Shown here: positions 7,592 through 23,627 of the stretch, in pieces
Numbering within the stretch: the first letter of the stretch is position 1
How the letters are laid out: every line of letters starts with the position of its first letter
Assembly (NCBI RefSeq): GCF_001466305.1
Contig: NZ_JWID01000014.1
Coordinates: 1 to 40,373 of the forward strand
Direction of reading: 5' to 3'
From: Defluviitalea phaphyphila
GTDB lineage: Bacteria; Bacillota; Clostridia; Lachnospirales; Defluviitaleaceae
Length of the DNA: 40,373 nucleotides
Position numbers and translations under genes: made by a program
Notes under the pieces: generated by a model
Databases searched by the model: none
The model's input: the letters and a program-made list of their open reading frames with translations, nothing else
What the model was told of the DNA's origin: nothing

Positions 7592-9805
7592 CTACTCTAC
7601 TACTTTTAGTTTTGCAAGCCCTGCCATTAATTTCTTTTTCCCGTATTTTGGAAATAAAACTGTAACTTCATAATCTGCTCCCGCATATCTAATATCTTCA
7701 ACAGTACCTATTCCAAATTTTAAATGTTTCACTAAATCTCCACACTGATATTCTAAAGAAATATTTTTAGATCCTAAATTTTCTTTACTTGAAAGAGCCC
7801 CTTGATAAGGTTTGTAACTTTGTAAAATTCTATTCTTATTTCTAATTCCCGCTAAAAGATCAGATGATTTTTTTTCTTTATTTTTTATATTTATAAGTTC
7901 TTTAGGAATTTCTTCAATAAATCTAGATTGTCTATTATATTGGGTTGTTCCTCTAATTGTTCTAGATTTTGCATAACATAAATAAAGTTTTTCTTTTGCC
8001 CTAGTTATTCCTACATAACATAATCTTCTTTCTTCTTCTATTGCATCTTCTTTTTCTGATACAATACTCATATAACTAGGAAAAATCCCCTCTTCTAATC
8101 CTGTAATAAATACATATGGAAATTCTAAACCTTTTGCGCTATGAAGAGTCATTAATGTTACAGCATTATTTGTTTCATCATAATTATCAATATCTGCTAC
8201 TAGAGAAACTTCTTCTAAGAATCCTTGTAAACTAGGTTCTTCTGCATTTTTATCATACTCTGAAGCTTTTGATATTAATTCTTTAATATTCTGTATTCTT
8301 TCTTTAGCTTCTTCTGTATTTTCCTTTTCTAGTTCTTTTAAATATCCTGTTTTTGATAGTAGTTCTTCTATAAGTTCCTCAACACTAGAAATTTCTGATT
8401 GAACTTGTAACCCACCTATTAAATCTGAAAACTTTTTTAATTTAGAGACAGCTCTTCCAAATTGAGATACTATTTCTTGTTCTCTAATAATATCAAAAAA
8501 ACTCATACCACTAGATAAAACATATTCTTCTACTTTACTTACAGTTGTATTTCCTATTCCTCTCTTAGGAACATTTATAATTCTTTTTAAAGATAAATCA
8601 TCAGAAGGATTTTGAATTACCCTTAAATATGCTAATAGGTCTTTTATTTCTTTTCTTTCATAAAATCTTACTCCTCCTAATAATCTATAAGGAATAGAAT
8701 GTTTTATAAAATGTTCTTCTAATACACGGGATTGTGCATTAGTGCGATATAAAATTGCAAAATCTTTATATTCTCTACCATCTTCAATTTGATTAATAAT
8801 TTCACTAGCAACTAAATCTGCTTCTTTATTTTCATTATCAGCTTCTATAATTTCTATTAAACTTCCATTTTGATTTTCTGTCCAAAGGGATTTTGATTTT
8901 CTTCCAAAATTATTTTTTATTACTGAATTTGCAGCTTCTAATATAATTTTAGTTGAACGATAATTCTGCTCTAATTTTATTATTTTTGCATTTTTAAAGT
9001 CTTTTTCGAAATCTAAAATATTTCTTATATTAGCCCCTCTCCACCCATAAATACTTTGGTCATCGTCTCCTACTACACAAAGATTCTGATGTTTAGAAGC
9101 TAAAAGACTTATTAATTTATATTGAGCAGTATTAGTATCTTGATATTCATCCACCATAATATATTCAAATCTATTTTGATAATATTCTAAAATATCTGGA
9201 TGATATAAAAATAACTCTACAGTTTTAAATATAATGTCATCAAAATCTAATGCATTATTACTTTCTAGTTTTTTCTGATACATCTCATATATATTGGCTA
9301 ATTTTTCTTTTCTAAAATCTCCCTTACTATTTTTATAAAATTCTTCAGGCCCTATTAATTCATTTTTTTGATTACTTATTGTTCCTAAAACATTATTTAT
9401 AGGATAATTTTTTTCATTATAATTTAATTCTTTTAAACATTCTTTTATAATATTTTTTTGGTCAGCAGTATCATAAATAGTAAAAGAACGATTATATCCT
9501 AACTTATCAATATCTTTTCTAAGAATCCTTACACAAGCTGAATGAAAGGTACTAACCCAAATTTCTTCTGCCATTTCACCTACTAAGGCATTAACCCTTT
9601 CTCTCATTTCTTTAGCGGCCTTATTAGTAAAAGTAATAGCTAGTATTTTCCATGGTAAAACATTTTCCTTTTCTATAAGATAAGCTATTCTATGGGTTAA
9701 TACTCTTGTTTTCCCTGAACCGGCTCCAGCTAAAATTAATACTGGGCCTTTTGTTTGCAACACAGCTTCTTTTTGTTTGGGATTTAACCCTTCAATTAAA
9801 TTCAT
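7592..9805 (-). CDS. pcrA: ATP-dependent DNA helicase PcrA (UvrD/Rep family)
   Basis: A 737-residue superfamily 1A 3'-5' helicase acting in excision repair, plasmid replication and removal of recombinase filaments. All SF1 motifs are visible: Q motif GLNPKQKEAV, Walker A AGAGSGKT (26-33), TFTNKAAKEM (Ia), VDEYQDTN (II), GDDDQSIYGWRGA (III), EQNYRS (IV), TLHSAKGLEFPYVF (V) and VGITRAKEKLYL (VI). The C-terminus carries the Tudor-like segment (GDLVKHLKFGIGTVEDI) typical of Gram-positive PcrA. Length is normal. The start is supported by AAGGAGAA 7 bases upstream. It is preceded by yerC and a terminator. In Bacillus pcrB lies between yerC and pcrA; no pcrB is present here. Confidence 0.97.
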   Translation of the reverse strand: MNLIEGLNPKQKEAVLQTKGPVLILAGAGSGKTRVLTHRIAYLIEKENVLPWKILAITFTNKAAKEMRERVNALVGEMAEEIWVSTFHSACVRILRKDIDKLGYNRSFTIYDTADQKNIIKECLKELNYNEKNYPINNVLGTISNQKNELIGPEEFYKNSKGDFRKEKLANIYEMYQKKLESNNALDFDDIIFKTVELFLYHPDILEYYQNRFEYIMVDEYQDTNTAQYKLISLLASKHQNLCVVGDDDQSIYGWRGANIRNILDFEKDFKNAKIIKLEQNYRSTKIILEAANSVIKNNFGRKSKSLWTENQNGSLIEIIEADNENKEADLVASEIINQIEDGREYKDFAILYRTNAQSRVLEEHFIKHSIPYRLLGGVRFYERKEIKDLLAYLRVIQNPSDDLSLKRIINVPKRGIGNTTVSKVEEYVLSSGMSFFDIIREQEIVSQFGRAVSKLKKFSDLIGGLQVQSEISSVEELIEELLSKTGYLKELEKENTEEAKERIQNIKELISKASEYDKNAEEPSLQGFLEEVSLVADIDNYDETNNAVTLMTLHSAKGLEFPYVFITGLEEGIFPSYMSIVSEKEDAIEEERRLCYVGITRAKEKLYLCYAKSRTIRGTTQYNRQSRFIEEIPKELINIKNKEKKSSDLLAGIRNKNRILQSYKPYQGALSSKENLGSKNISLEYQCGDLVKHLKFGIGTVEDIRYAGADYEVTVLFPKYGKKKLMAGLAKLKVVE

Positions 9806-9830
9806 ATTTATTCTCCTTTTCTAATTCAAA

Positions 9831-9862
9831 ATAAAAACCTTTCCATAAAAATATTGGAAAGG
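9831..9862 (-). terminator. Intrinsic terminator between yerC and pcrA
   Basis: On the minus strand an 8-bp perfect stem CCTTTCCA/TGGAAAGG with a 9-base loop is followed by TTTTTATTTT. It begins a few bases after the yerC stop and ends 26 bases before the pcrA start, so pcrA expression needs read-through or a promoter within this short gap. Confidence 0.8.
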
Positions 9863-9866
9863 GTTA

Positions 9867-10163
9867 TTATTTATTATTTTTTTCTAATCTATCAAGTACC
9901 ATATTATATCCATCTGAACCATATATTAATGAACGATTGACTCGACTTATAGTTGCTGTTGAGGCTCCTGTTTTTTCTGTAATTTCAGAGTAAGTTTTTC
10001 GCTGTCTTAACATCTTTGCTACTTCTAATCTTTGAGCTAAAGCCTTAATTTCATGAATTGTACATATGTCTTCAAAAAAGGAATAACATTCTTCTACACT
10101 ATTAAGAGTCAAAATTGCTTCAAAAAGATGGTCCGTAGCCTCATCTTTAATTTTGGAATTCAT
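9867..10163 (-). CDS. yerC: YerC/YecD-type TrpR-like regulator
   Basis: A 98-residue protein of the TrpR-related YerC/YecD family. The N-terminal helices (about 8-50, including CTIHEIKALAQRLEVAKML) form the TrpR-type dimer scaffold, and a helix-turn-helix follows (about 57-80, SEITEKTGASTATISRVNR). It should bind DNA as a dimer; no ligand or target is established. The neighbourhood yerC-pcrA-ligA matches Firmicute synteny. The start ATG has AAAGGAG 7 bases upstream. Its leader carries a promoter overlapping the end of the PHP gene and an inverted repeat covering the ribosome binding site, which suggests control at its own leader. Confidence 0.9.
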   Translation of the reverse strand: MNSKIKDEATDHLFEAILTLNSVEECYSFFEDICTIHEIKALAQRLEVAKMLRQRKTYSEITEKTGASTATISRVNRSLIYGSDGYNMVLDRLEKNNK

Positions 10164-10173
10164 TTTATTACTC

Positions 10174-10219
10174 CTTTCATACCTCCTATAACACTTTTTA
10201 ATATTTTACAGTATGAAAG
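10174..10219 (-). promoter_or_regulatory. Inverted repeat covering the yerC ribosome binding site
   Basis: Two perfect 9-base arms, CTTTCATAC (10211-10219) and GTATGAAAG (10174-10182) as read on the minus strand, are separated by 28 bases. The downstream arm includes part of the AAAGGAG ribosome binding site of yerC, and a second AGGAGG (10183-10188) is in the loop. The upstream arm lies inside the promoter spacer, so a DNA-level operator is as plausible as an mRNA hairpin. Confidence 0.45.
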
Positions 10220-10231
10220 TACTAAAGTCAA
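10203..10231 (-). promoter_or_regulatory. Sigma-A-type promoter for yerC
   Basis: On the minus strand TTGACT (10226-10231) and TAAAAT (10203-10208) are separated by exactly 17 bases. The -35 box overlaps the stop codon of the upstream PHP gene. It would start yerC transcription about 35 bases before its ATG. Confidence 0.65.
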
Positions 10232-10935
10232 GACAGAAAATTCTTTAATGTTTCTACTGAAGTATTTACAACTAAATGCTCTGGAACCTCTATGTCTTTT
10301 ATAAGTTCTTCAATATATCTAAAATTCCCTACATCAAAACAAATATGAGCATCACTTCCCATAATAAAAGGCATATTTATATTAATACATTCTTTTATTA
10401 TATTTAAAACAATGTCAGATCCTCCAGCTCTAAAACTTCCTGGTCTTAATGAATGATTGTTTATTTCAAGTAAAGTTTTATATTCTTTAGCAGCACTTAC
10501 TACTTCTTTTACATCAATAGGATATCTTGGATCTCCTGGATGTCCTATTATATCTATATGCGGATTTTCCATAGCTTTTATTAAAGCATTTGTATTTTCT
10601 TTCATACTCCCTGGATTAATACATGGGGGATGAAAACTGGCAATTACAATATCTAACATTTCTAAAGTTTCTTCATCTAAATCTACATTTCCACTATAAT
10701 CTATTATATTTGTTTCTACTCCTTTTAAAATTTCTACTCCATATATTTTTTTAGGAATTACAGACATATTATGAAAATGAAATAAATGAGCTCCTCCAGG
10801 TAATCTATCCGAATGGTCAGTAATAGCTATTAATTCTAAACCTGTATCAGAAGCATACTTAGCATTTTCTAATAATGTGCTATAAGCATGCCCACTAGAA
10901 ACTGTATGGCAATGAGTATCTAAAACAAATTTCAT
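10228..10935 (-). CDS. PHP-domain hydrolase (YcdX-like phosphatase)
   Basis: A 235-residue single-domain PHP-superfamily protein. Metal-binding motifs typical of PHP phosphoesterases are seen in order: DTHCHT (6-11), ITDHSD (37-42), GVETNI (72-77), SFHPP (100-104), GHPGDPRY, EINNHS and GSDAH. This pattern matches the YcdX-like trinuclear-metal phosphatases rather than the PHP domain of a polymerase or histidinol phosphatase HisK. No signal peptide is present. AAGGAG precedes the start. It is the gene just upstream of yerC and may give some read-through, but yerC has its own promoter. Substrate is unknown. Confidence 0.87.
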   Translation of the reverse strand: MKFVLDTHCHTVSSGHAYSTLLENAKYASDTGLELIAITDHSDRLPGGAHLFHFHNMSVIPKKIYGVEILKGVETNIIDYSGNVDLDEETLEMLDIVIASFHPPCINPGSMKENTNALIKAMENPHIDIIGHPGDPRYPIDVKEVVSAAKEYKTLLEINNHSLRPGSFRAGGSDIVLNIIKECININMPFIMGSDAHICFDVGNFRYIEELIKDIEVPEHLVVNTSVETLKNFLS

Positions 10936-11019
10936 TAAAATTCATCTCCTTAAGTCTCCTATATTTAATTAATATAAATATATTAACACATTATTATACT
11001 ATTGCAAGTTTATTATAAA

Positions 11020-11052
11020 TAAAAAATCCACTATACTTTTGTATAATGGATT
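11020..11052 (-). terminator. Intrinsic terminator after phoU
   Basis: On the minus strand a 12-bp stem around AATCCATTATAC/GTATAGTGGATT (one G-U pair, loop AAAA) ends in TTTTTTATT. It lies next to the phoU stop and closes the pst-phoU transcript. Confidence 0.88.
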
Positions 11053-11053
11053 T

Positions 11054-11707
11054 TTATTTATATTTTAAATTCCCTGTTATATTATATTTAATCCATTCAC
11101 ATATATTAGTAGCATGGTCAGCCATTCTTTCAAGATATTTTACTATAAAAATAAAATATGTTCCCTGCATAATAAAATTTGAATCTTTTTTCATTAATGC
11201 TTGAATTTCCTCTATAATATCATAAAAATATTGATCTACAATATCATCTTCTTTAATAACTTTATCAGCTTTTTCAATGTTTTTCTCTATATAACTATCT
11301 ATCGTTTCTTTTACCATTTCTTTTACTTTATCTGCCATTAAAGGTATATGAACAAGAGGTTTTTTATAATTTTCTTTTGCAAGTTTAATAACATACTCAG
11401 AAATATCTGCACAATGGTCTGCAATTCTTTCTAAATCAGTTATAATCTTTAAAATAGAAGTTATTAATCTTAAGTCACTAGCTATTGGTTGCTGTCTTGC
11501 AATAATCATAATACATTCTGTTTCCATAGAAATTTCCATATTATCAATTTTGTCATCTCTTTTTATTACTTCTTTTGCTAATTCTATATCTTGATTTTTC
11601 ATAGCCTTAATTGTATCACTTATAGATTGTTCTATCATTACTCCCATTTTTAATAAATCATTATGCATTTTATTTAATTCTTTTTCAAATTCATATCTAG
11701 TAGACAT
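11054..11707 (-). CDS. phoU: Phosphate signalling and transport regulator PhoU
   Basis: A 217-residue cytosolic all-helical protein with the two tandem PhoU three-helix repeats (about 10-105 and 115-210). Each ends in the characteristic acidic metal-binding segment: ITDLERIADHCADI in repeat 1 and VKYLERMADHATNI in repeat 2. PhoU dampens PhoR signalling and phosphate uptake through PstSCAB when phosphate is plentiful. It is the last gene of the pst operon, 26 bases after pstB, followed by a strong terminator. Confidence 0.96.
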   Translation of the reverse strand: MSTRYEFEKELNKMHNDLLKMGVMIEQSISDTIKAMKNQDIELAKEVIKRDDKIDNMEISMETECIMIIARQQPIASDLRLITSILKIITDLERIADHCADISEYVIKLAKENYKKPLVHIPLMADKVKEMVKETIDSYIEKNIEKADKVIKEDDIVDQYFYDIIEEIQALMKKDSNFIMQGTYFIFIVKYLERMADHATNICEWIKYNITGNLKYK

Positions 11708-11733
11708 ATTTTCAATCCTTTCATTTGATTTTA

Positions 11734-12489
11734 TTATCCAAATCTTCCTGTAATATAATCTTCTGTTTTCTTATTTTTAGGATTACTAAATATTTTTTCT
11801 GTCTTATCAAACTCAATTATTTCTCCTAATAAGAAAAATGCTGTATTATCAGAAATACGGGCAGCTTGCTGCATATTGTGAGTTACTATTATAATAGTAT
11901 ATTTCTTTTTAAGTTCTACTGCTAAGTCTTCTATTTTTAAAGTTGAAATAGGGTCTAAGGCTGAAGTTGGTTCATCCATAAGAAGAACTTCTGGTTCTAC
12001 AGCCAAAGCTCTAGCTATACATAGTCTTTGTTGTTGTCCACCTGATAATCCTAAAGCATTCTTTTTTAACCTATCTTTTAATTCATCCCAAATAGCAGCT
12101 GATCTAAGACTTTTTTCAACTATTTCATCTAATATAGATTTCTTTTTTATTCCATGAATACGAGGACCATAGGCTATATTATCATAAACACTCATGGGAA
12201 AAGGATTAGGTTTTTGGAAAACCATTCCTACTTTTTTTCTTAATTTTATGACATCTATATCTTCAAATATATCTTTTCCATCTAGCTTTACTTCTCCAGT
12301 AATTTTTACTCCTTCAATTAAATCATTCATTCTATTAAGGGTTTTTAAAAAAGTTGATTTTCCACAGCCTGAAGGACCTATAAAAGATGTAATTTCTCTA
12401 TCTGGAATATCTATACTAATATTTTTTAATGCTTGAAATTCTCCATAAAATAAATTTAAATTTTTTATGCTAAATTTTGCATTTTTCAT
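11734..12489 (-). CDS. pstB: Phosphate ABC transporter ATPase PstB
   Basis: A 251-residue ABC ATPase that energises phosphate import at the inner face of the membrane. Walker [10 protein letters not shown] (38-46), the PstB-specific Q-loop [15 protein letters not shown] (91-105), signature [15 protein letters not shown] (148-162), Walker [13 protein letters not shown] (169-180) and the switch His in [10 protein letters not shown] are all intact. The PNPFP segment separates PstB from other ABC importers. Gap to pstA is 15 bases. Confidence 0.98.
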
Positions 12490-12504
12490 TTTTATCTCCT
12501 TCCA

Positions 12505-13341
12505 TTACATTCTAGTCTTGTTAAATTTTTTGGACATAAAATTAGCCATAAAGTTAATTATTAAAACAACTATTATTAAAACTGTAGCCGTAGCAAATCC
12601 TTTATCAAAATCTCCTTCTTTTGTCAAAACATACATATGAACTGATAATGTCCTAGATGAATCCATAATACTCTTTGCCATCCTTGGTGCAAAACCTGCT
12701 GTAAAATAAACAGCAGCTGTTTCCCCAACAATACGACCAATACTTAAAATTATAGAAGTAATAATACCAGAAATAGCACTGGGAAGAATAACTTTTATTA
12801 TTGTTTTTAACTTTGAAGCGCCTAATCCTAAACTTCCTTCTCTATAAGAATTAGGAACTGCTTTTAAAGATTCTTCAGTTGTACGAATAATGGTCGGAAG
12901 AACCATAATACTTAAAGTCATGGCTCCAGATAATATGGAATATTTCCATCCTATTTGATTAACAAAAAATAAATATCCAAATAATCCAAATATGATAGAT
13001 GGTATCCCTGATAGACTTTCTGTCGCAAACCTAATGATTCGAACTATTTTCCCTTGTTTTGCATATTCAACAAGATATATAGCTGCACACACTCCTATAG
13101 GAGTAGAAATTAATATTGATAATAATACAATATAGATAGTTGTTATTATCATTGGGAAAATTCCACCTTCATTAAATCCTTTAGGAGCTGTAGATAAAAA
13201 TTCCCAATTAATTTTTCCTATTCCATTAGCTACTACATAAATTAAAATCCATGTAAGAATTCCTACTGTTATAAATGAGGATATAATAATCATTGTCATT
13301 AATATTGCGTCCTTAATTTTTCTAGTTTTCAAATTACTCAC
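12505..13341 (-). CDS. pstA: Phosphate ABC transporter permease PstA
   Basis: A 278-residue permease with six predicted membrane segments and the coupling-helix region SYREGSLGLGASKLKTIIKVILP typical of PstA/PstC. It forms the translocation channel with PstC. The frame opens at a GTG (13341) that overlaps the end of pstC by 8 bases; a TTG at 13332 lies after AGGTGAG and is an alternative start, so the N-terminus is uncertain by three residues. It is co-transcribed with pstC and pstB. Confidence 0.95.
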   Translation of the reverse strand: MSNLKTRKIKDAILMTMIIISSFITVGILTWILIYVVANGIGKINWEFLSTAPKGFNEGGIFPMIITTIYIVLLSILISTPIGVCAAIYLVEYAKQGKIVRIIRFATESLSGIPSIIFGLFGYLFFVNQIGWKYSILSGAMTLSIMVLPTIIRTTEESLKAVPNSYREGSLGLGASKLKTIIKVILPSAISGIITSIILSIGRIVGETAAVYFTAGFAPRMAKSIMDSSRTLSVHMYVLTKEGDFDKGFATATVLIIVVLIINFMANFMSKKFNKTRM

Positions 13342-14269
13342 CTACTTTATGAGTTAAAATGTTTAATATTATATTTAAAATAATAATGAAAATAAATAAA
13401 ATAACTCCTGTAGCAAAAAGTGCTTCTTCTGCTAATCCAAAAGCATAACCCATCTCTAAAGCTACATTAGCTGTTAGAGTTCTAATAGGTTTTAAAATAG
13501 ATTTAGGTATAATAGCTGCATTCCCAGAAATTAATATAACAGCCATAGTTTCACCTATAGCTCTTCCTATTCCTAAAACTATCCCTGCCATTATTCCAGA
13601 TTTAGAAGCAGGAAGTATTACCTTAAATATAGTTTGAATACGGGAAGCCCCCATAGCTAAAGAACCTTCTTTATATTCTTTTGGTACTGCACGAATTGAA
13701 TTTTCAGAAATACTAATAATAGTAGGCAATATCATTATTCCTAATATTATACATACAGCCAATAAACTATTTCCAGGTCCACCAAAATTCTTAGATATTA
13801 GAGGAACAATAGTAAGTAATCCAAAAAAACCATAAACAACTGATGGTATTCCTGCTAATAGTTCCACAGCAGGCTTTATAATATTTACTAACCATTTTGG
13901 CGCTATTTCTGCAATAAACACTGCTGTTAATATACCAACAGGAACTCCTATAATAATAGCCCCCAAAGTAGCATATAAAGACCCCAATATCATTGGCAAT
14001 ATTCCAAATATTTCTGCTTCTGGATTCCATTTCGTTCCAAGTATAAACTTAAATATTCCTATTTTAAATATTGCAGGACTTCCTTTAACAAATATAAAGA
14101 TTGTAATCATAGCAACACTTAAAACACTCATAAATGCACATAACAAAAAAATTTTTTCTGTTATTTTTTCTAATATTTCTTTTCCTTTAATTTTTTTCTT
14201 TTGATTTTCTTTTTTCTTTAAATTAATTTTATTTAGAAATATAGGTAGACCTACTTCTTTTATGCTCAT
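13334..14269 (-). CDS. pstC: Phosphate ABC transporter permease PstC
   Basis: A 311-residue permease, partner of PstA. After a Lys-rich cytosolic N-terminus (KINLKKKENQKKKIKGK) there are six predicted membrane helices and the conserved EAA-like loop (VPKEYKEGSLAMGASRIQTIFKVI). The ATG at 14269 is chosen because AGGAGG ends 6 bases before it; an in-frame upstream ATG at 14299 has no good ribosome binding site. A hairpin separates it from pstS, consistent with lower expression than the binding protein. Confidence 0.95.
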   Translation of the reverse strand: MSIKEVGLPIFLNKINLKKKENQKKKIKGKEILEKITEKIFLLCAFMSVLSVAMITIFIFVKGSPAIFKIGIFKFILGTKWNPEAEIFGILPMILGSLYATLGAIIIGVPVGILTAVFIAEIAPKWLVNIIKPAVELLAGIPSVVYGFFGLLTIVPLISKNFGGPGNSLLAVCIILGIMILPTIISISENSIRAVPKEYKEGSLAMGASRIQTIFKVILPASKSGIMAGIVLGIGRAIGETMAVILISGNAAIIPKSILKPIRTLTANVALEMGYAFGLAEEALFATGVILFIFIIILNIILNILTHKVGE

Positions 14270-14311
14270 ATCTTTCCTCCTATTTATAAACATTTTCATT
14301 AATGAAATAAC

Positions 14312-14338: not shown

Positions 14339-15241
14339 TTATTTTGCTGGAATATATTTTTCTGCTACTATTTTTTGCCCTTCTTCTCCTAGAGCATAAT
14401 CAAGAAAGGCTTGTGCTTCTTTACTTATTTCTCCTTTAGTTACCATAAGAAGATGTCTAGAAATTTCATAAGTTCCTGCTTTTACGTTTTCTACTGTTGC
14501 TTCTACTCCATTAATAGTTAATGCTTTTACTGTTTCGTCTAAATATCCAAGGGAAAGATATCCTATCCCATTTTTTTGTTGTGATAATGAAGCTTTTAAA
14601 GCTCCATTACTATCAAATGTAAGAGCATCCTCTACCATAGCACTTACTTCTTTACCTTCATCATTTTTATCTAAAAGTCCTACAATTTCTTCAAAAGCTC
14701 CTCTCGTTCCTGAACCAGCTTCACGACCTAAAACAACTATTTGTGCATCATTTCCTCCAACTTCCTTCCAATTTTTAATTTCTCCTCTAAAAATTTTATT
14801 TATTGTTTCTTTATCTAAATCGGATACGGGATTTTCTGGATGTACAACCACTGCTATACCGTCATATGCCAACACATGTTCAGTTAACCCCCACTCTTTT
14901 TCTTCTTCTTTTAATTCACGAGAAGCATTTCCTATATCAACAGTTCCTGCATTCGCATCTTTAATTCCTGTAGAAGACCCTCCTCCTTGAACGTTAACAG
15001 TAATTCCAGGTTCTACTGATGCAAAAGCATCCGCTATTGCTTGTGCAACAGGCAATACTGTTGTTGACCCACTCATAGTTACTGTACCTTCTAGCTTATC
15101 TTCTCCTTGATTTACTACATTTTGTTCTTGTTGTGCTGTTTGATCTGATTGAGTTTCTTCTTTATCACTATTACATCCTACAAAAATTGTTACCACCATA
15201 GTTAATATTAAAATTAAATTAAATATTCTCAACTTCTTCAT
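14339..15241 (-). CDS. pstS: Phosphate-binding lipoprotein PstS
   Basis: A 300-residue periplasmic-type binding lipoprotein. The signal peptide ends at the lipobox before C23 (FVGC), and a Gln/Glu-rich linker follows. Phosphate-binding motifs are GSTTVLPVAQ, QGGGSSTGI, GNASREL and GREAGSGTRGAF. It delivers phosphate to PstCA. The ATG at 15241 is chosen over an upstream in-frame ATG because GAGGAGG lies 6-7 bases before it. It is the first intact gene of the pst operon and is directly preceded by a well-formed Pho box. Confidence 0.96.
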   Translation of the reverse strand: MKKLRIFNLILILTMVVTIFVGCNSDKEETQSDQTAQQEQNVVNQGEDKLEGTVTMSGSTTVLPVAQAIADAFASVEPGITVNVQGGGSSTGIKDANAGTVDIGNASRELKEEEKEWGLTEHVLAYDGIAVVVHPENPVSDLDKETINKIFRGEIKNWKEVGGNDAQIVVLGREAGSGTRGAFEEIVGLLDKNDEGKEVSAMVEDALTFDSNGALKASLSQQKNGIGYLSLGYLDETVKALTINGVEATVENVKAGTYEISRHLLMVTKGEISKEAQAFLDYALGEEGQKIVAEKYIPAK

Positions 15242-15276
15242 TATTTCCCTCCTCAATATTTTACTTTCTTATTTGT

Positions 15277-15347
15277 ATTTTACTCACAAGAATACTCTAA
15301 CAACTTTTTGTTAATGCTCTATAATGATTATGTTAATTTCATGTTAA
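15277..15347 (-). promoter_or_regulatory. Pho box and promoter of the pst operon
   Basis: Five hexamers with an exact 11-base period are read on the minus strand: TTAACA (15342-15347), TTAACA (15331-15336), ATTATA (15320-15325), TTAACA (15309-15314) and TTGTTA (15298-15303). This matches the direct-repeat architecture described for PhoP binding in Bacillus (TTAACA-like repeats, 5-base spacers). A -10-like TAAAAT follows at 15277-15282, 15 bases after the last repeat. The first ATG is 36 bases further on. Confidence 0.82.
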
Positions 15348-15358
15348 CTCTTATTATT

Positions 15359-17360
15359 TTATAATTTAAAAACATTAACTGTTTTCTTCAATTCCTGGGA
15401 CATCTGCATTAATTCTTCACTTCTTCTAAAAATTTTTTCCATATTTAAAACTTGATGTTCTACTGATATATGAATTTGTTTACACATTTTTGTTGATTTA
15501 TATATTTTTTTATTCATCTGTTCAATTTCTTTTATTATTTTTTTCTTTTCAGAATCTATATTTAAAATAGCTTTGTTTAATTGATTTATTTCATCAGAAA
15601 TTTTTCTGCTATATTTTCTATATCTCTAAAAATATTTTCTGTATTTAACATAGCTTCATATTGTAATTTTGAAGTTTCTTTTGTTTCTTTCATTATTTTA
15701 GTTGTTTTTTCAACTTGCAAAACCATATCATCTAAATAATTATAAATTGTACTAGTTAATTCTTCCGTTTGTTTTGATAACTCTCTTATTTCCTTTGCTA
15801 CAACTCCAAAACCTCTTCCATATTCTCCTGCTCTTGCTGATTCTATTGTTGCATTTAATGAAATTAAATTTGTTTGTTTTGCAATATTTTCAATATTATG
15901 TATAATATTTACTACTTTTTTAGTTTTTGTTTGTAATCCTTCTATTTCATATGTAACAATTTCCCCTAAATCCATATTTCTTTTAGAGGCTTTATGTAAC
16001 TCTCTAACTCTATAAATGCCTAATCTATTTATTTTTTTATTTTCTTTTATCTTTTCTAATACAACTTCTTCATTATGAATAATTTTATTTATATATTCTG
16101 AAAATTGTATAATTTGTTTTAATATTTTATCTGATTCTTGAAATTGATAATTAGAAATATTTGATAATTGTTCTAAAGAGGAAGATATCTCTTGAACTGA
16201 TACCGAATTTTGTTCACAAATTTGATAAAAATCTATAGAAGATTTATTTAATAACCCGCTAACTTTTAATATACTTTTTACTAAATTTCTTATTTGAGAT
16301 ATCATTTTATTAAATTGATTTGTTAATTTTCCTACTTCATCATTTGATTTTTTCTTCAAATGAATAGTTAAATTTCCCTTCTCTATCTTCCCCATTCCTT
16401 TCAAAAGTTCTTCCATTGGTTTAGTTATACTTTTTACAATTTTAATACTAAAACTTACTCCTAAAACTAATAATATAAACAATATAATTATATTTTTAAA
16501 AATTATATCTTTAATCTCTTTTTCTATCTCATTATTATCCATTGCTACGGCAAACTTCCAACCTGTTCTTGTATTTGTCACAAAATTCATAAAATATTCT
16601 ACTCCATCAATGCTATATTTTAATTCACCCGAATCTATATTTTTTATAGTTTGAAACTTAATTTCTTTTGATAAATCTTTTCCAATTATTTCCTTATTTC
16701 CATGAGCTGTTATTATTCCTTCAGAATTTAAGGCAAAAGCATATCCTGTTTTTCCTAATTTAATATCTTTTAAAATAGAGTTAAAATAATCTACAGAAAT
16801 TACAGCAGCAACAACTCCTATTACTTCTCCATCTTTATTAAATGTTTTTGAAATTATAATTTCTGGTTCTTTTGATTTTTCATTTAAAACAGGGGATGAA
16901 TATACAACTCTCCCTTTATTTTTCATTGCATTTATATACCATGATTCTGTAGTAGGATTATAATTTTGGGGACAGAACTTATTTCTGGATATTGATAAAA
17001 ATGATTTTTAAAACTAGCAACCATTAATTTTTTAATAACTCCATTACCTTCTTCATACTGTCTAAAATCTTCTAGTATTTTAATTTTATATTTTTCTGAT
17101 ATTAAAATATTAGTTACACTATTTTCCCTAGATATTCCTTGTAAAGTTAATTCAATACTTTTAAATAACATTTCAAAAGTTTTCTCAATTTGATTAGCTA
17201 ATAATACTTCTGATTCATTAGCAAAATTTTTTATTCTTTTTGTCATAACAATAGAGCTAGTAATGATTACTACTATTAAACTAAAAATTTGCATGATAAA
17301 AACTACAAATAAAATTTTAGTTAAAATCTTTGTATTTGTTTTTATTTTAGATATTATCAC
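15359..17360 (-). pseudogene. Methyl-accepting chemotaxis protein, disrupted by two frameshifts
   Basis: Three minus-strand reading frames together encode one chemoreceptor: (a) from about 17360 to 16972, a membrane helix and the start of a dCache sensor domain; (b) from about 16971 to 15605, the rest of dCache (resuming [15 protein letters not shown]), second membrane helix, HAMP and the signalling hairpin tip ([20 protein letters not shown]); (c) from about 15601 to 15359, the C-terminal helix ending VNVFKL. The first break is at a C4 run (16968-16971), where the dCache loop also looks shorter than usual; the second is at an A5 run (15601-15605), where one extra A would restore the frame. 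The preferred start is GTG at 17360 after GGGAGG. It lies between phoPR and pstS, so phosphate sensing is suggested but unproven. Sequencing error cannot be excluded. Confidence 0.82.
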
Positions 17361-17413
17361 CACATATCCTCCCATTTTAAGCTGTTTAGTTCCATCTAAA
17401 TATATATATTATT

Positions 17414-17452
17414 TATAAAGGTATAATTAATTTTTGATTAATTTCTTGTTAA
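17414..17452 (-). promoter_or_regulatory. Pho-box-like repeats upstream of the chemoreceptor gene
   Basis: Read on the minus strand, TTAACA (17447-17452), TTAATC (17436-17441), TTAATT (17425-17430) and TTTATA (17414-17419) keep an exact 11-base period. Only the first is a perfect Pho repeat; in such AT-rich DNA chance similarity is a real possibility. Confidence 0.42.
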
Positions 17453-17469: not shown

Positions 17470-17500
17470 AAAAAAAGACAAGGTTTAACCTTATCTTTTT
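17470..17500 (-). terminator. Intrinsic terminator after phoR
   Basis: On the minus strand an AAGATAAGGT/ACCTTGTCTT stem (one G-U pair, loop TAA) is followed by a U-rich run. It sits immediately after the phoR stop, separating phoPR from the chemoreceptor and pst genes. Confidence 0.85.
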
Positions 17501-19263
17501 TATTGTTTATATGAAGTTAGTGGCAATAAAATTGTGAAAATAGTTCCTTCTCCTACATTACTTTCTACACTAATGCTTCCATTATATAATTTTACAATGT
17601 GCTTTACTATGGAAAGACCAAGCCCTGTTCCTCCCATTTTTCTTGATCTACCTTTATTAACCCTATAAAATCTTTCAAATAATCTTGGTATATGTTCTTT
17701 AGGAATTCCTATCCCTGTATCTTTTATGATAAATTTTAGAAAATCTCCTTCCCTTTTGCAAATAAGCGTCACTTTACCCTTTTCAGTATATTTTATTCCA
17801 TTATCAATTATATTAATTAATATTTGTTTTATTCTATCTTTATTGCAATAAAAAAACGGTATATCTTTTTCAATATTTTTCTCTAATCCAATATTCTTTT
17901 TATCTGCTTTAGGTTTTAAAATTTCAAAAACTTCATCTATTATGTCTTCAACATTATTCATATTCATGTCAATATCTTTTTCTCTTGTTTCAATTTCAGA
18001 TAAATATAATATATCTTGAATTAAACGATATAACCTTTCTGATTCTACATCTATAATTTCTAAAAATCTATTAGCTACTTTTTTATCCTCTATAGCTCCA
18101 TTTTTTAAAGTATCTATAAATCCTCTAATAGAAGTTAATGGCGTTTTTAATTCATGACTTACATTAGATACAAAATCTTTTCTCATTTGCTCTAATTTTT
18201 TTATCTTAGTTATATCTTCAATCACAAGAAGACTTCCCATAATATATTCTTTATACTCTGTAGACCCTATAGGATTAGCATATACTCTTAATATTTTGTT
18301 ATTTTCTCCATCAAATTCTAACTCTTGTACTATATATTTTTGACTTTTTAAAGAATTCTCTAATACTTCTAATATTTTTTGATTTCTTATTACTTCATAA
18401 ACTAACTTACCATAACAATCTTTTTCTATTGAAAATATTTCATATACCTTAGGATTTATTAACATAATATGAAAAGAAGAATCTACAGCTATGATTCCCT
18501 CTGTCATGCTATTTAATATTGATTCTAATTTTATATTTTGATTTTTAAATTTTACAAATGAATATTTTAATTCTTTTACCATATAATTAAATGTATAAGC
18601 TAATTTTTCTATTTCTTTATATCCATTTAAATATACCCTTTTATTATAATTACCTTTAGCAATTTCTTCTGCAGCCATTACTAATTGACCAATTGGCTTT
18701 GAAATTTTTTTTGAAAAAATAAAAGCTATAATAAAAGCTATAACAATTCCTATTAATATTCCTACTACACTATAATTAATAATCTCTATGTTCATTTGAC
18801 TAATTTCTGTTACAGGAATAGATAGTCTTAAAAAACCTGAAAATTTTTCTACATTTACATGATAAGCTATATACATATAATAAATTCCTAATGTACTACT
18901 ATATCTTTTACTAAATCCTACTTCTCCTTTAGCAGCTTGAGTTATTTCCAATCGATTTATATGATTTTCCATAGTTTCTGGTAATGTTTCTGAATCTCCT
19001 AATACTATACCATTTTCATCTATAATTGTTAAACGACCATTTACAACTTCTCCATATTTTTTGCTAAATTCCTGAAAATCTATTTTTTCATTAGAATTAA
19101 TTTCTTTTATAAAAATATCTGAAATAAGTTTTACTTTAACCAACAATTCTTCATTTAAACGATTATAATAATAATTTTGACTGGTCCTAATAGCAAAAAA
19201 ACCTGTGACTAAACATGAAAATATAATTAAAATTATATATGTAACTAAAAGCTTTCTTTTCAT
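17500..19263 (-). CDS. phoR: Phosphate-responsive sensor histidine kinase PhoR
   Basis: A 587-residue membrane histidine kinase. Order: TM1 (about 7-27), extracytoplasmic sensor domain (28-160), TM2 (about 162-184), HAMP (184-236), PAS (about 245-350), HisKA with the phospho-acceptor H370 in VSHELKTPLTSIRGF, and HATPase_c with IDNGIKYT (N box), DTGIGIP (G1) and GGTGLGLSI (G2). This is the standard PhoR/WalK-like layout; assignment to phosphate rests on the adjoining phoP and pst genes and the Pho box. It starts 3 bases after phoP and ends in a terminator. Expected to autophosphorylate and phosphorylate PhoP at low phosphate. Confidence 0.92.
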   Translation of the reverse strand: MKRKLLVTYIILIIFSCLVTGFFAIRTSQNYYYNRLNEELLVKVKLISDIFIKEINSNEKIDFQEFSKKYGEVVNGRLTIIDENGIVLGDSETLPETMENHINRLEITQAAKGEVGFSKRYSSTLGIYYMYIAYHVNVEKFSGFLRLSIPVTEISQMNIEIINYSVVGILIGIVIAFIIAFIFSKKISKPIGQLVMAAEEIAKGNYNKRVYLNGYKEIEKLAYTFNYMVKELKYSFVKFKNQNIKLESILNSMTEGIIAVDSSFHIMLINPKVYEIFSIEKDCYGKLVYEVIRNQKILEVLENSLKSQKYIVQELEFDGENNKILRVYANPIGSTEYKEYIMGSLLVIEDITKIKKLEQMRKDFVSNVSHELKTPLTSIRGFIDTLKNGAIEDKKVANRFLEIIDVESERLYRLIQDILYLSEIETREKDIDMNMNNVEDIIDEVFEILKPKADKKNIGLEKNIEKDIPFFYCNKDRIKQILINIIDNGIKYTEKGKVTLICKREGDFLKFIIKDTGIGIPKEHIPRLFERFYRVNKGRSRKMGGTGLGLSIVKHIVKLYNGSISVESNVGEGTIFTILLPLTSYKQ

Positions 19264-19266
19264 ATT

Positions 19267-19971
19267 TTAATTATTTTCCTCTCTAAATTTATATCCTATT
19301 CCTCGAACAGTTTTTATATAATATGGTAAACTATCATTTTCTTCTATCTTTTTTCTTAAATGTCTTATATGCACATCTACTGTACGTGTTTCCCCTAAAT
19401 AATCATATCCCCATATTTTCTCTAATAAATCATCTCTAGAAAAAACTCTTCCGGGATTTTTAGCTAACATTCTTAAAAGTTCAAATTCTTTTAACGACAT
19501 ATCAATTATTTTGTTATTTTTTCTCACTGTTCTAGTTGTTTCATTAATTTCTAGATTATCAATTCTGATTATTTTTTCTTTTTCTTCTAAATCTTCTTTA
19601 AATTTTTGACGTCTTAAAACAGCTTTTACTCTAGCTAAAAGTTCACGAATTCTAAAAGGCTTTCCTATATAATCATCTGCTCCCATTTCTAATCCTAGCA
19701 CAGTATCTATTTCTTCATTTTTTGCTGTAAGCATTATAACTGGAATATTCTTTATTTTATCATTATTTCTTATTCTCTGTAAAACTTCTAATCCATCAAT
19801 TCCTGGAAGCATAAGATCTAATATAATCAAATCTACAGAAGAATTTACTTTTTCTATTGCTTCTTCTCCAGATTCTGCTTGTATAACTTTATATCCATTT
19901 TCTTCAAGATTATATTTTAGTAACTCTAAAATATGTAATTCATCATCTACTATAAGTACCTTATTTTGCAT
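19267..19971 (-). CDS. phoP: Response regulator PhoP (OmpR family)
   Basis: A 234-residue OmpR/PhoB-type regulator. The receiver domain (1-120) has the acidic pair D9/D10, the phospho-acceptor D52 (LDLMLPG), T82 and K104 (GKPF). The C-terminal winged helix (about 135-232) includes the recognition segment TVDVHIRHLRKKIE and ends GYKF. The ATG at 19971 is preferred; a TTG two codons upstream (19977) is closer to AAGGAG and is possible. It forms a two-gene operon with phoR. Its leader contains a terminator-like hairpin. Confidence 0.93.
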   Translation of the reverse strand: MQNKVLIVDDELHILELLKYNLEENGYKVIQAESGEEAIEKVNSSVDLIILDLMLPGIDGLEVLQRIRNNDKIKNIPVIMLTAKNEEIDTVLGLEMGADDYIGKPFRIRELLARVKAVLRRQKFKEDLEEKEKIIRIDNLEINETTRTVRKNNKIIDMSLKEFELLRMLAKNPGRVFSRDDLLEKIWGYDYLGETRTVDVHIRHLRKKIEENDSLPYYIKTVRGIGYKFREENN

Positions 19972-20001
19972 TTTCAATCCACTCCTTTAATCAAATTATA
20001 C

Positions 20002-22965: not shown

Positions 22966-23208
22966 TTAATTAAAAAGCCCTCTTCGTTGAGCTTCTTGAA
23001 TAAGCATTTCATATTTTTCACGGGTAAATCCAAGAGCCAATTTAGCAATTTTTTTATGCGTATATTCAACTGTTCTCTTTTCTTCTTCTAATTCTTTTAA
23101 CCATTTTTTAGTATTTTTTAAATCTTCCTTTAATCTATTTATTTCATTTAATAAATCTTGGTCATCTAACTCTATATATTTAGAAATTATTTTTTTTTCC
23201 ATTTCCAT
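22966..23208 (-). CDS. Small coiled-coil protein, 80 residues
   Basis: Not recognised. An 80-residue protein with a heptad-like, Lys/Glu-rich coiled coil (about 12-52, LNEINRLKEDLKNTKKWLKE) followed by a conserved-looking C-terminus (KIAKLALGFTREKYEMLIQE). The ATG at 23208 has GGGAGG 7 bases upstream. It is convergent with the DUF4364 gene, 6 bases between stops and no clear terminator. No signal or membrane segment. Confidence 0.7.
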   Translation of the reverse strand: MEMEKKIISKYIELDDQDLLNEINRLKEDLKNTKKWLKELEEEKRTVEYTHKKIAKLALGFTREKYEMLIQEAQRRGLFN

Positions 23209-23367
23209 TTTGAATCCTCCCTAATATATGTTAATATAATACAAATAATATATACTATTACTATTATAACCATATTAATACAATATTAAGTTTATATTAC
23301 AATTTTATTTTTTTATTCCTGCCAAGTTTCTGATAAAAGTTATTTAATAAACCTACAATTTATTCAA

Positions 23368-23415
23368 AATAATAAAATCCAAAGCTTGTACTTATAAGCT
23401 TTGGATTTTATTATT
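23368..23415. terminator. Long bidirectional hairpin after the PspC gene
   Basis: A perfect 20-bp inverted repeat (core AATCCAAAGCTT/AAGCTTTGGATT, 8-base loop) whose outer part is A/T, giving a U-rich exit on either strand. The right arm touches the stop codon of the PspC gene. It serves as its terminator. Confidence 0.88.
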
Positions 23416-23627
23416 TATCTTAAATCTCTATATTCATCATCTAATGGTATTATAGCCCAAAAAGCAATATAAACTAAAATTCCTATTATTCCCATTCCTC
23501 CTATAATGCTAAATAATACCCACATTATCCTAACAACTGTGGAATCAACATTAAAATACTCCGCAATTCCTCCACAAACTCCTGCAATTTTTTTATCTGT
23601 ATTAGATAAATATAATTTTTTCTGCAA
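23415..23627 (-). CDS. PspC-domain membrane protein
   Basis: A 70-residue stand-alone PspC domain. The N-terminal KKLYLSNTDKKIAGVCGGIA is the family hallmark, followed by EYFNVDSTVVRIMWV and a single membrane helix (about 45-62). PspC proteins sense or respond to envelope stress in several bacteria; the short Firmicute versions are uncharacterised. The start is a TTG at 23627 preceded by AAGGAGGAG. It is a single-gene unit closed by the long hairpin at 23368-23415. Confidence 0.88.
   Translation of the reverse strand: MQKKLYLSNTDKKIAGVCGGIAEYFNVDSTVVRIMWVLFSIIGGMGIIGILVYIAFWAIIPLDDEYRDLR

Follow-up and report, generated by a model that had tools for sequence, protein, structure and literature searches.

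The window, i.e., the whole stretch of DNA analysed here, spans 40,373 bases and is an entire contig of a 2.54-Mb genome. Its minus strand carries a phosphate locus in the order phoP-phoR-mcp-pstS-pstC-pstA-pstB-phoU, in which mcp has the make-up of a chemoreceptor gene with dCache, HAMP, and MCP signalling regions (Table 1). A preliminary description had placed such a gene between phoPR and pstS, and both this placement and its coordinates proved exact. A terminator-like hairpin closes phoR, which makes a separate promoter for mcp likely. Judged from the sequence, mcp most likely starts with a GTG at about 17360, behind the ribosome-binding site GGGAGG. A search of the window against Rfam gave no matches. 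Further along the minus strand, a short ORF with a TTG start (23415-23627), too small for the 80-residue cut-off of the ORF list, encodes a PspC-like protein and is 63% identical to copies in a sister genus.

Table 1. Coordinates of the phosphate locus genes, the parts of mcp, and the associated signals in the window
Feature	Position	Strand	Remarks
phoP, response regulator	19267-19977	minus	intact
phoR, sensor kinase	17500-19263	minus	intact
Terminator-like hairpin 3' of phoR	17471-17501	minus	1 found vs 0.2 expected
Candidate PhoP-binding array 5' of mcp	17414-17452	minus	TTAACA/TTAATC/TTAATT/TTTATA, exact 11-bp spacing
Ribosome-binding site GGGAGG	17368-17373	minus	read from the sequence
mcp remnant, dCache-HAMP-MCP	15359 to about 17360	minus	between phoPR and pstSCAB-phoU
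mcp part 1: first transmembrane helix and first part of dCache	16971-17360	minus	
Frame break 1, C4 run	16968-16971	minus	net -1 relative to intact orthologues, within dCache
mcp part 2: remainder of dCache, second transmembrane helix, HAMP, methylation helix 1, signalling hairpin	15606-16967	minus	Pfam dCache_1, HAMP, MCPsignal
Frame break 2, A5 run	15601-15605	minus	net -1, past the signalling hairpin
mcp part 3: C-terminal helix to stop	15359-15598	minus	third frame; stop at 15359-15361
Candidate Pho array 5' of pstS	15298-15347	minus	five units, 11-bp spacing; holds the best four-unit site of the window
pstS, phosphate-binding lipoprotein	14339-15256	minus	
pstC, pstA, pstB, phoU	11054-14299	minus	all intact

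Frame breaks in mcp and intact orthologues

Receptor copies were searched for in 40 relatives, and unbroken copies of mcp were found in a single sister genus, namely in its genomes G003, G005, and G006. The intact orthologue is 669 aa long and about 60-62% identical to the window protein (60% over 661 aligned codons). In one of these orthologues (L041) the domain scores for dCache_1 (91.7 bits), HAMP (43.4), and MCPsignal (89) all exceed the cut-off. An unbroken mcp between phoR and pstS, the arrangement that was sought in relatives, is thus present in the sister genus: the order phoP-phoR-mcp-pstSCAB-phoU is kept in all three of its genomes with the locus, together with further conserved genes beyond phoP.

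Each of the three orthologues (L041, L042, and L043) is encoded in one open reading frame, whereas the window copy contains two net -1 breaks and was therefore filed as a pseudogene of the dCache_1 methyl-accepting chemotaxis protein family. Two separate breaks, at the C4 and A5 runs, had been reported before, and alignment with the 669-aa proteins bears out both. The dCache domain is split over two frames, and HAMP and MCPsignal both fall in the second frame (Pfam). Translation from the GTG would run into a stop within the sensor domain after 142 codons. Just one start codon occurs among codons 1-100 of the second open frame, and no Shine-Dalgarno-like motif precedes it. In the alignment, break 1 leaves three residues of the relative unaligned and break 2 another six, all of which were excluded from the translated pieces. 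The loss of a dCache loop, a possibility raised in the preliminary description, was rejected; part 2 aligns to the relative without internal gaps, so no sensor loop is missing.

Compared with the relative, mcp shows 0.27, 0.19, and 0.50 differences per site at codon positions 1, 2, and 3, respectively, and a pN/pS of 0.34. For eleven neighbouring genes, pN/pS ranges from 0.12 to 0.34, with the pstA entry of this set taking in a few bases 5' of the gene and one stop inside. Since the substitutions in mcp are mostly at third positions, most of the divergence dates from a time when mcp was still being translated; if the breaks are real, they are therefore recent. Part 3 is the least conserved (42% identity, pN/pS 0.60), which is not taken as a sign of relaxed selection, since another MCP tried as a C-terminal yardstick has six G003 matches at 48-51%, none of them a clear orthologue.

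Real lesions or sequencing errors

The alternative that survives best is that both breaks are sequencing or assembly errors and that the living organism has an intact, working Pho-controlled chemoreceptor. It would fit the observation that each break is the loss of one base within or beside a short homopolymer, i.e., at a site where some sequencing methods fail, as well as a codon constraint in mcp that is close to that of its intact neighbours. However, the C4 and A5 runs are short, and a second MCP gene in the same genome is also broken, there by an in-frame stop plus a frame change. Moreover, all 12 neighbours with sister-genus matches are essentially complete and read in a single frame, and the 70 ABC_tran matches in the genome are free of stops (10 are partial and 60 near full length, i.e., cover at least 130 of the 137 profile positions). 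Two breaks in the 2 kb of mcp thus stand against none in an estimated 36 kb or so of control coding sequence, which favours real lesions, although the comparison is post hoc in that mcp was chosen for its breaks. Artefactual breaks are considered unlikely, and the breaks would then be present in the living cell. With an intact orthologue in the sister genus and unbroken control genes, the earlier proposal that mcp has decayed is probably correct.

Direct-repeat arrays upstream of mcp and pstS

The Pho unit of Bacillus subtilis is the hexamer TT(A/T)A(C/T)A. Units resembling this hexamer are found at 11-bp spacing upstream of mcp, as would be expected of a Pho regulon member. Arrays were scored with a simple weight table, and the best four-unit score was compared with dinucleotide shuffles of the intergenic region. 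The array upstream of mcp scores 20.8 and the one upstream of pstS 22.4, values reached by 0 of 2000 shuffles in either case; when the whole window was shuffled (n=30), scores as high as that of the mcp array occurred 0.07 times per shuffle on average. Among periods from 9 to 13, a period of 11 scores highest in the window. In the relative (L041), the region upstream of mcp has an array of the same 11-bp period at a similar place (score 21.1, 0/2000 shuffles), and the region upstream of pstS scores 19.1 (P 0.003). Upstream of phoP the array score was not significant in either genus (P 0.14 and 0.15).

In PMC4415409, the PHO box is likewise given as an 11-nucleotide direct-repeat unit. The exactly spaced, TTAACA-like array noted in the preliminary description withstood the shuffling comparison, and its reading as a Pho regulon element is strengthened by the recurrence of the period upstream of the intact copy. 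What did not hold is its description as a remnant: with 20.8 compared to 21.1 in the relative, the array is not visibly degraded. The mcp and pstS arrays are good candidates for PhoP sites, and PhoP may be expected to bind the mcp array and to induce mcp upon starvation.

It could be argued that mcp is an ordinary MCP gene that merely happens to be located in this locus, that the array has no role, and that phosphate is irrelevant. The window has a GC content of 27%, and a loose two-unit TTAACA pattern is no commoner in it than expected by chance (419 matches vs 416 expected), so the evidence for the array consists of its four-unit period and its conservation rather than of the hexamer. Furthermore, the site at 23262-23300 ties with the mcp array in score even though it lacks an exact TTAACA. 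Against this, no shuffle reached the four-unit score of the mcp array in either genus, its spacing is that of the pstS arrays, and the position of mcp in the locus is kept across the genus split, which leaves an ordinary, phosphate-independent receptor improbable.

Another AT-rich array with 11-bp periodicity (23229-23311, minus strand), the four best units of which include no exact TTAACA, lies just upstream of an 80-residue ORF (22966-23208). Conservation of this ORF in the sister genus is 54-55%.

Distribution and history of the arrangement

The phoR orthologue is present in four of the eight family genomes, including the window genome, and mcp is found in those same four. Neither gene was detected in G001, G002, G004, and G007 at the thresholds used, G007 being 78% complete. 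In an order-wide search of 392 genomes (sensor domain, E 1e-20 or better), nine genomes outside those four gave matches at 21-32% identity. None exceeded 32% beyond the window genus and the sister genus, and the arrangement is thus narrow. No pst or pho genes were found within about 1.5 kb of other MCP genes of the order in 26 loci; in 9 further MCP loci, weak phoR-like matches occur in two.

The three intact genes encode an identical protein except for one residue in G006. G003 and G006 are two species, and their DNA identity is mostly 99.8-100% in the tract that begins at the start of pstS, includes mcp, and reaches into phoR, whereas it is mostly 81-92% in the pst genes and beyond phoP. The near-identity of the phoR-mcp tract points to recent recombination, so that the three intact copies represent about one independent lineage. 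The split of this lineage from the window genus, at 60% protein identity, nevertheless spans a long time over which the receptor has kept its place. In L041, the near-identical phoR-mcp tract covers about 8500-13500 in comparison with L043, with diverged flanks on either side.

Putative ligand and likeness to known receptors

The solved sequences closest to the sensor are mostly dCache chemoreceptor domains. For comparison, 5ave (Mlp37), an amino-acid sensor, was used. Its R-P-W-Y reads E-V-W-Y in the orthologue and E-S-W-Y in the window copy, and its F-Y-D-V reads A-A-A-V and A-A-V-I, respectively. The second position of the amino-acid motif is presumably D173. The dCache_1AA motif includes R126 (PctA numbering) and D173 (PMC10104139). 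The PctA-like receptors of this class, like 5ave, belong to the same sensor family as mcp, with the W-Y pocket pair kept. The motif arginine is replaced by glutamate and the aspartate on the next strand by alanine; with these two charged pocket residues absent, amino-acid sensing of the dCache_1AA class was set aside as unlikely.

The adjoining pstS suggests phosphate or phosphate-loaded PstS as a possible ligand, by analogy with CtpL of Pseudomonas aeruginosa (PMC4926252). CtpL is likewise a chemoreceptor of phosphate starvation and mediates low-phosphate taxis via the Pst binding protein PstS; its ligand-binding domain of 286 residues, however, is predicted to contain nine helices and was not assigned to a known fold in that paper, compared to dCache_1 here, and, unlike CtpL, the window mcp is broken and sits between phoPR and pstS (PMC4926252). 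A second phosphate chemoreceptor of P. aeruginosa, CtpH, binds phosphate directly through a four-helix-bundle domain, not dCache (PMC4926252). The gene for Tlp2 of Campylobacter jejuni adjoins the phosphate gene phoX, and its deletion lowers phosphate taxis (PMC6250842). Tlp2 is a dCache_1 receptor (PMC9769880) and thus of the same sensor family as mcp; its effects extend to taxis towards aspartate, pyruvate, and iron, and its control by PhosR was left open in the passage concerned (PMC6250842). A comparable gene arrangement is that of Mcp of Agrobacterium tumefaciens GW4, the gene of which adjoins the arsenite system and is under the control of that system's regulator, the receptor sensing the substrate, although both the substrate (arsenite) and the regulator (AioR) are different ones (PMC7533571). 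Coupling of phosphate starvation to taxis has been documented in few bacteria: in the literature searched, mostly at the level of titles and abstracts, the experimental cases noticed were from Proteobacteria and Campylobacter, with none noticed in Clostridia.

Proposed role and loss of the receptor

The reading preferred here, to which a probability of roughly two in three is assigned, is that mcp is a Pho-controlled chemoreceptor of a clostridial family which was recently turned into a pseudogene by two frame breaks. Its ancestor would have been a chemoreceptor within the Pho regulon of this family. At low phosphate, phosphorylated PhoP would bind the 11-bp array 5' of mcp, as at pstS, and thereby switch on a dCache-HAMP-MCP receptor feeding the common CheA pathway, so that the swimming of starved cells would follow a cue connected with the supply of phosphate. 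In the window genome, two single-base frame breaks would then have produced a recent pseudogene, with the remainder of the gene behind no evident ribosome-binding site. That the breaks are instead functional, with programmed frameshifting or reversible slippage (phase variation) yielding a full receptor in some cells, is hardly credible: both breaks are in or beside homopolymers and of the same sign, but neither site has the canonical heptamer X XXY YYZ in the incoming frame, runs of C4 and A5 are short for high-rate slippage, one protein would need two separate events, and a single frame suffices for the protein in the sister genus.

The window mcp is a probably recently broken member of a Pho-linked chemoreceptor class; as a pseudogene it is nothing unusual, but it hints at phosphate-controlled taxis in Clostridia. 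A further-reaching and rather doubtful version of the Pho-controlled reading is that a clostridial family maintains, within its phosphate locus, a dedicated dCache chemoreceptor under PhoP induction, the signal for which is the PstS lipoprotein loaded with phosphate or else some compound connected with the supply of phosphate. Such a receptor might constitute a taxis module of the Pho regulon in Firmicutes, with a sensor fold unlike that of CtpL. The module may have passed from one species to another in the form of a phoR-mcp recombination tract and just been lost here, with motility and Pst uptake kept. The intact mcp of the sister genus, with its clear 11-bp array and its place beside pstS, makes the idea of Pho-controlled taxis directly testable, and the broken window copy offers a natural loss for comparison.

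Chemotaxis genes and other receptors in the genome

The window genome contains one CheA (an open frame of 690 aa) and four flagellin matches, which suggests that motility and chemotaxis are retained. It has about 13 MCP genes (15 matches, two pairs of which share one frame each). The second broken MCP lies on the minus strand of contig C27 (L070, 1450-2708) and consists of three pieces, separated by an in-frame TAA and a frame change; its relatives in the family are 29-33% identical and encoded by open frames some 500 residues long. Matches to the receptor number 39-45 in the three sister-genus genomes vs 19 in the window genome. Together with the two broken MCPs and the retained CheA and flagellins, this suggests chemoreceptor pruning in the window lineage.

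Among the family genomes, G001 encodes a PstS-like lipoprotein upstream of pstC, pstA, and pstB (contig C66; L071, 1399-2322) that is apparently circularly permuted: within one frame of 308 residues, the two halves of PstS are found in swapped order, with the match to the C-terminal half first and that to the N-terminal half second.
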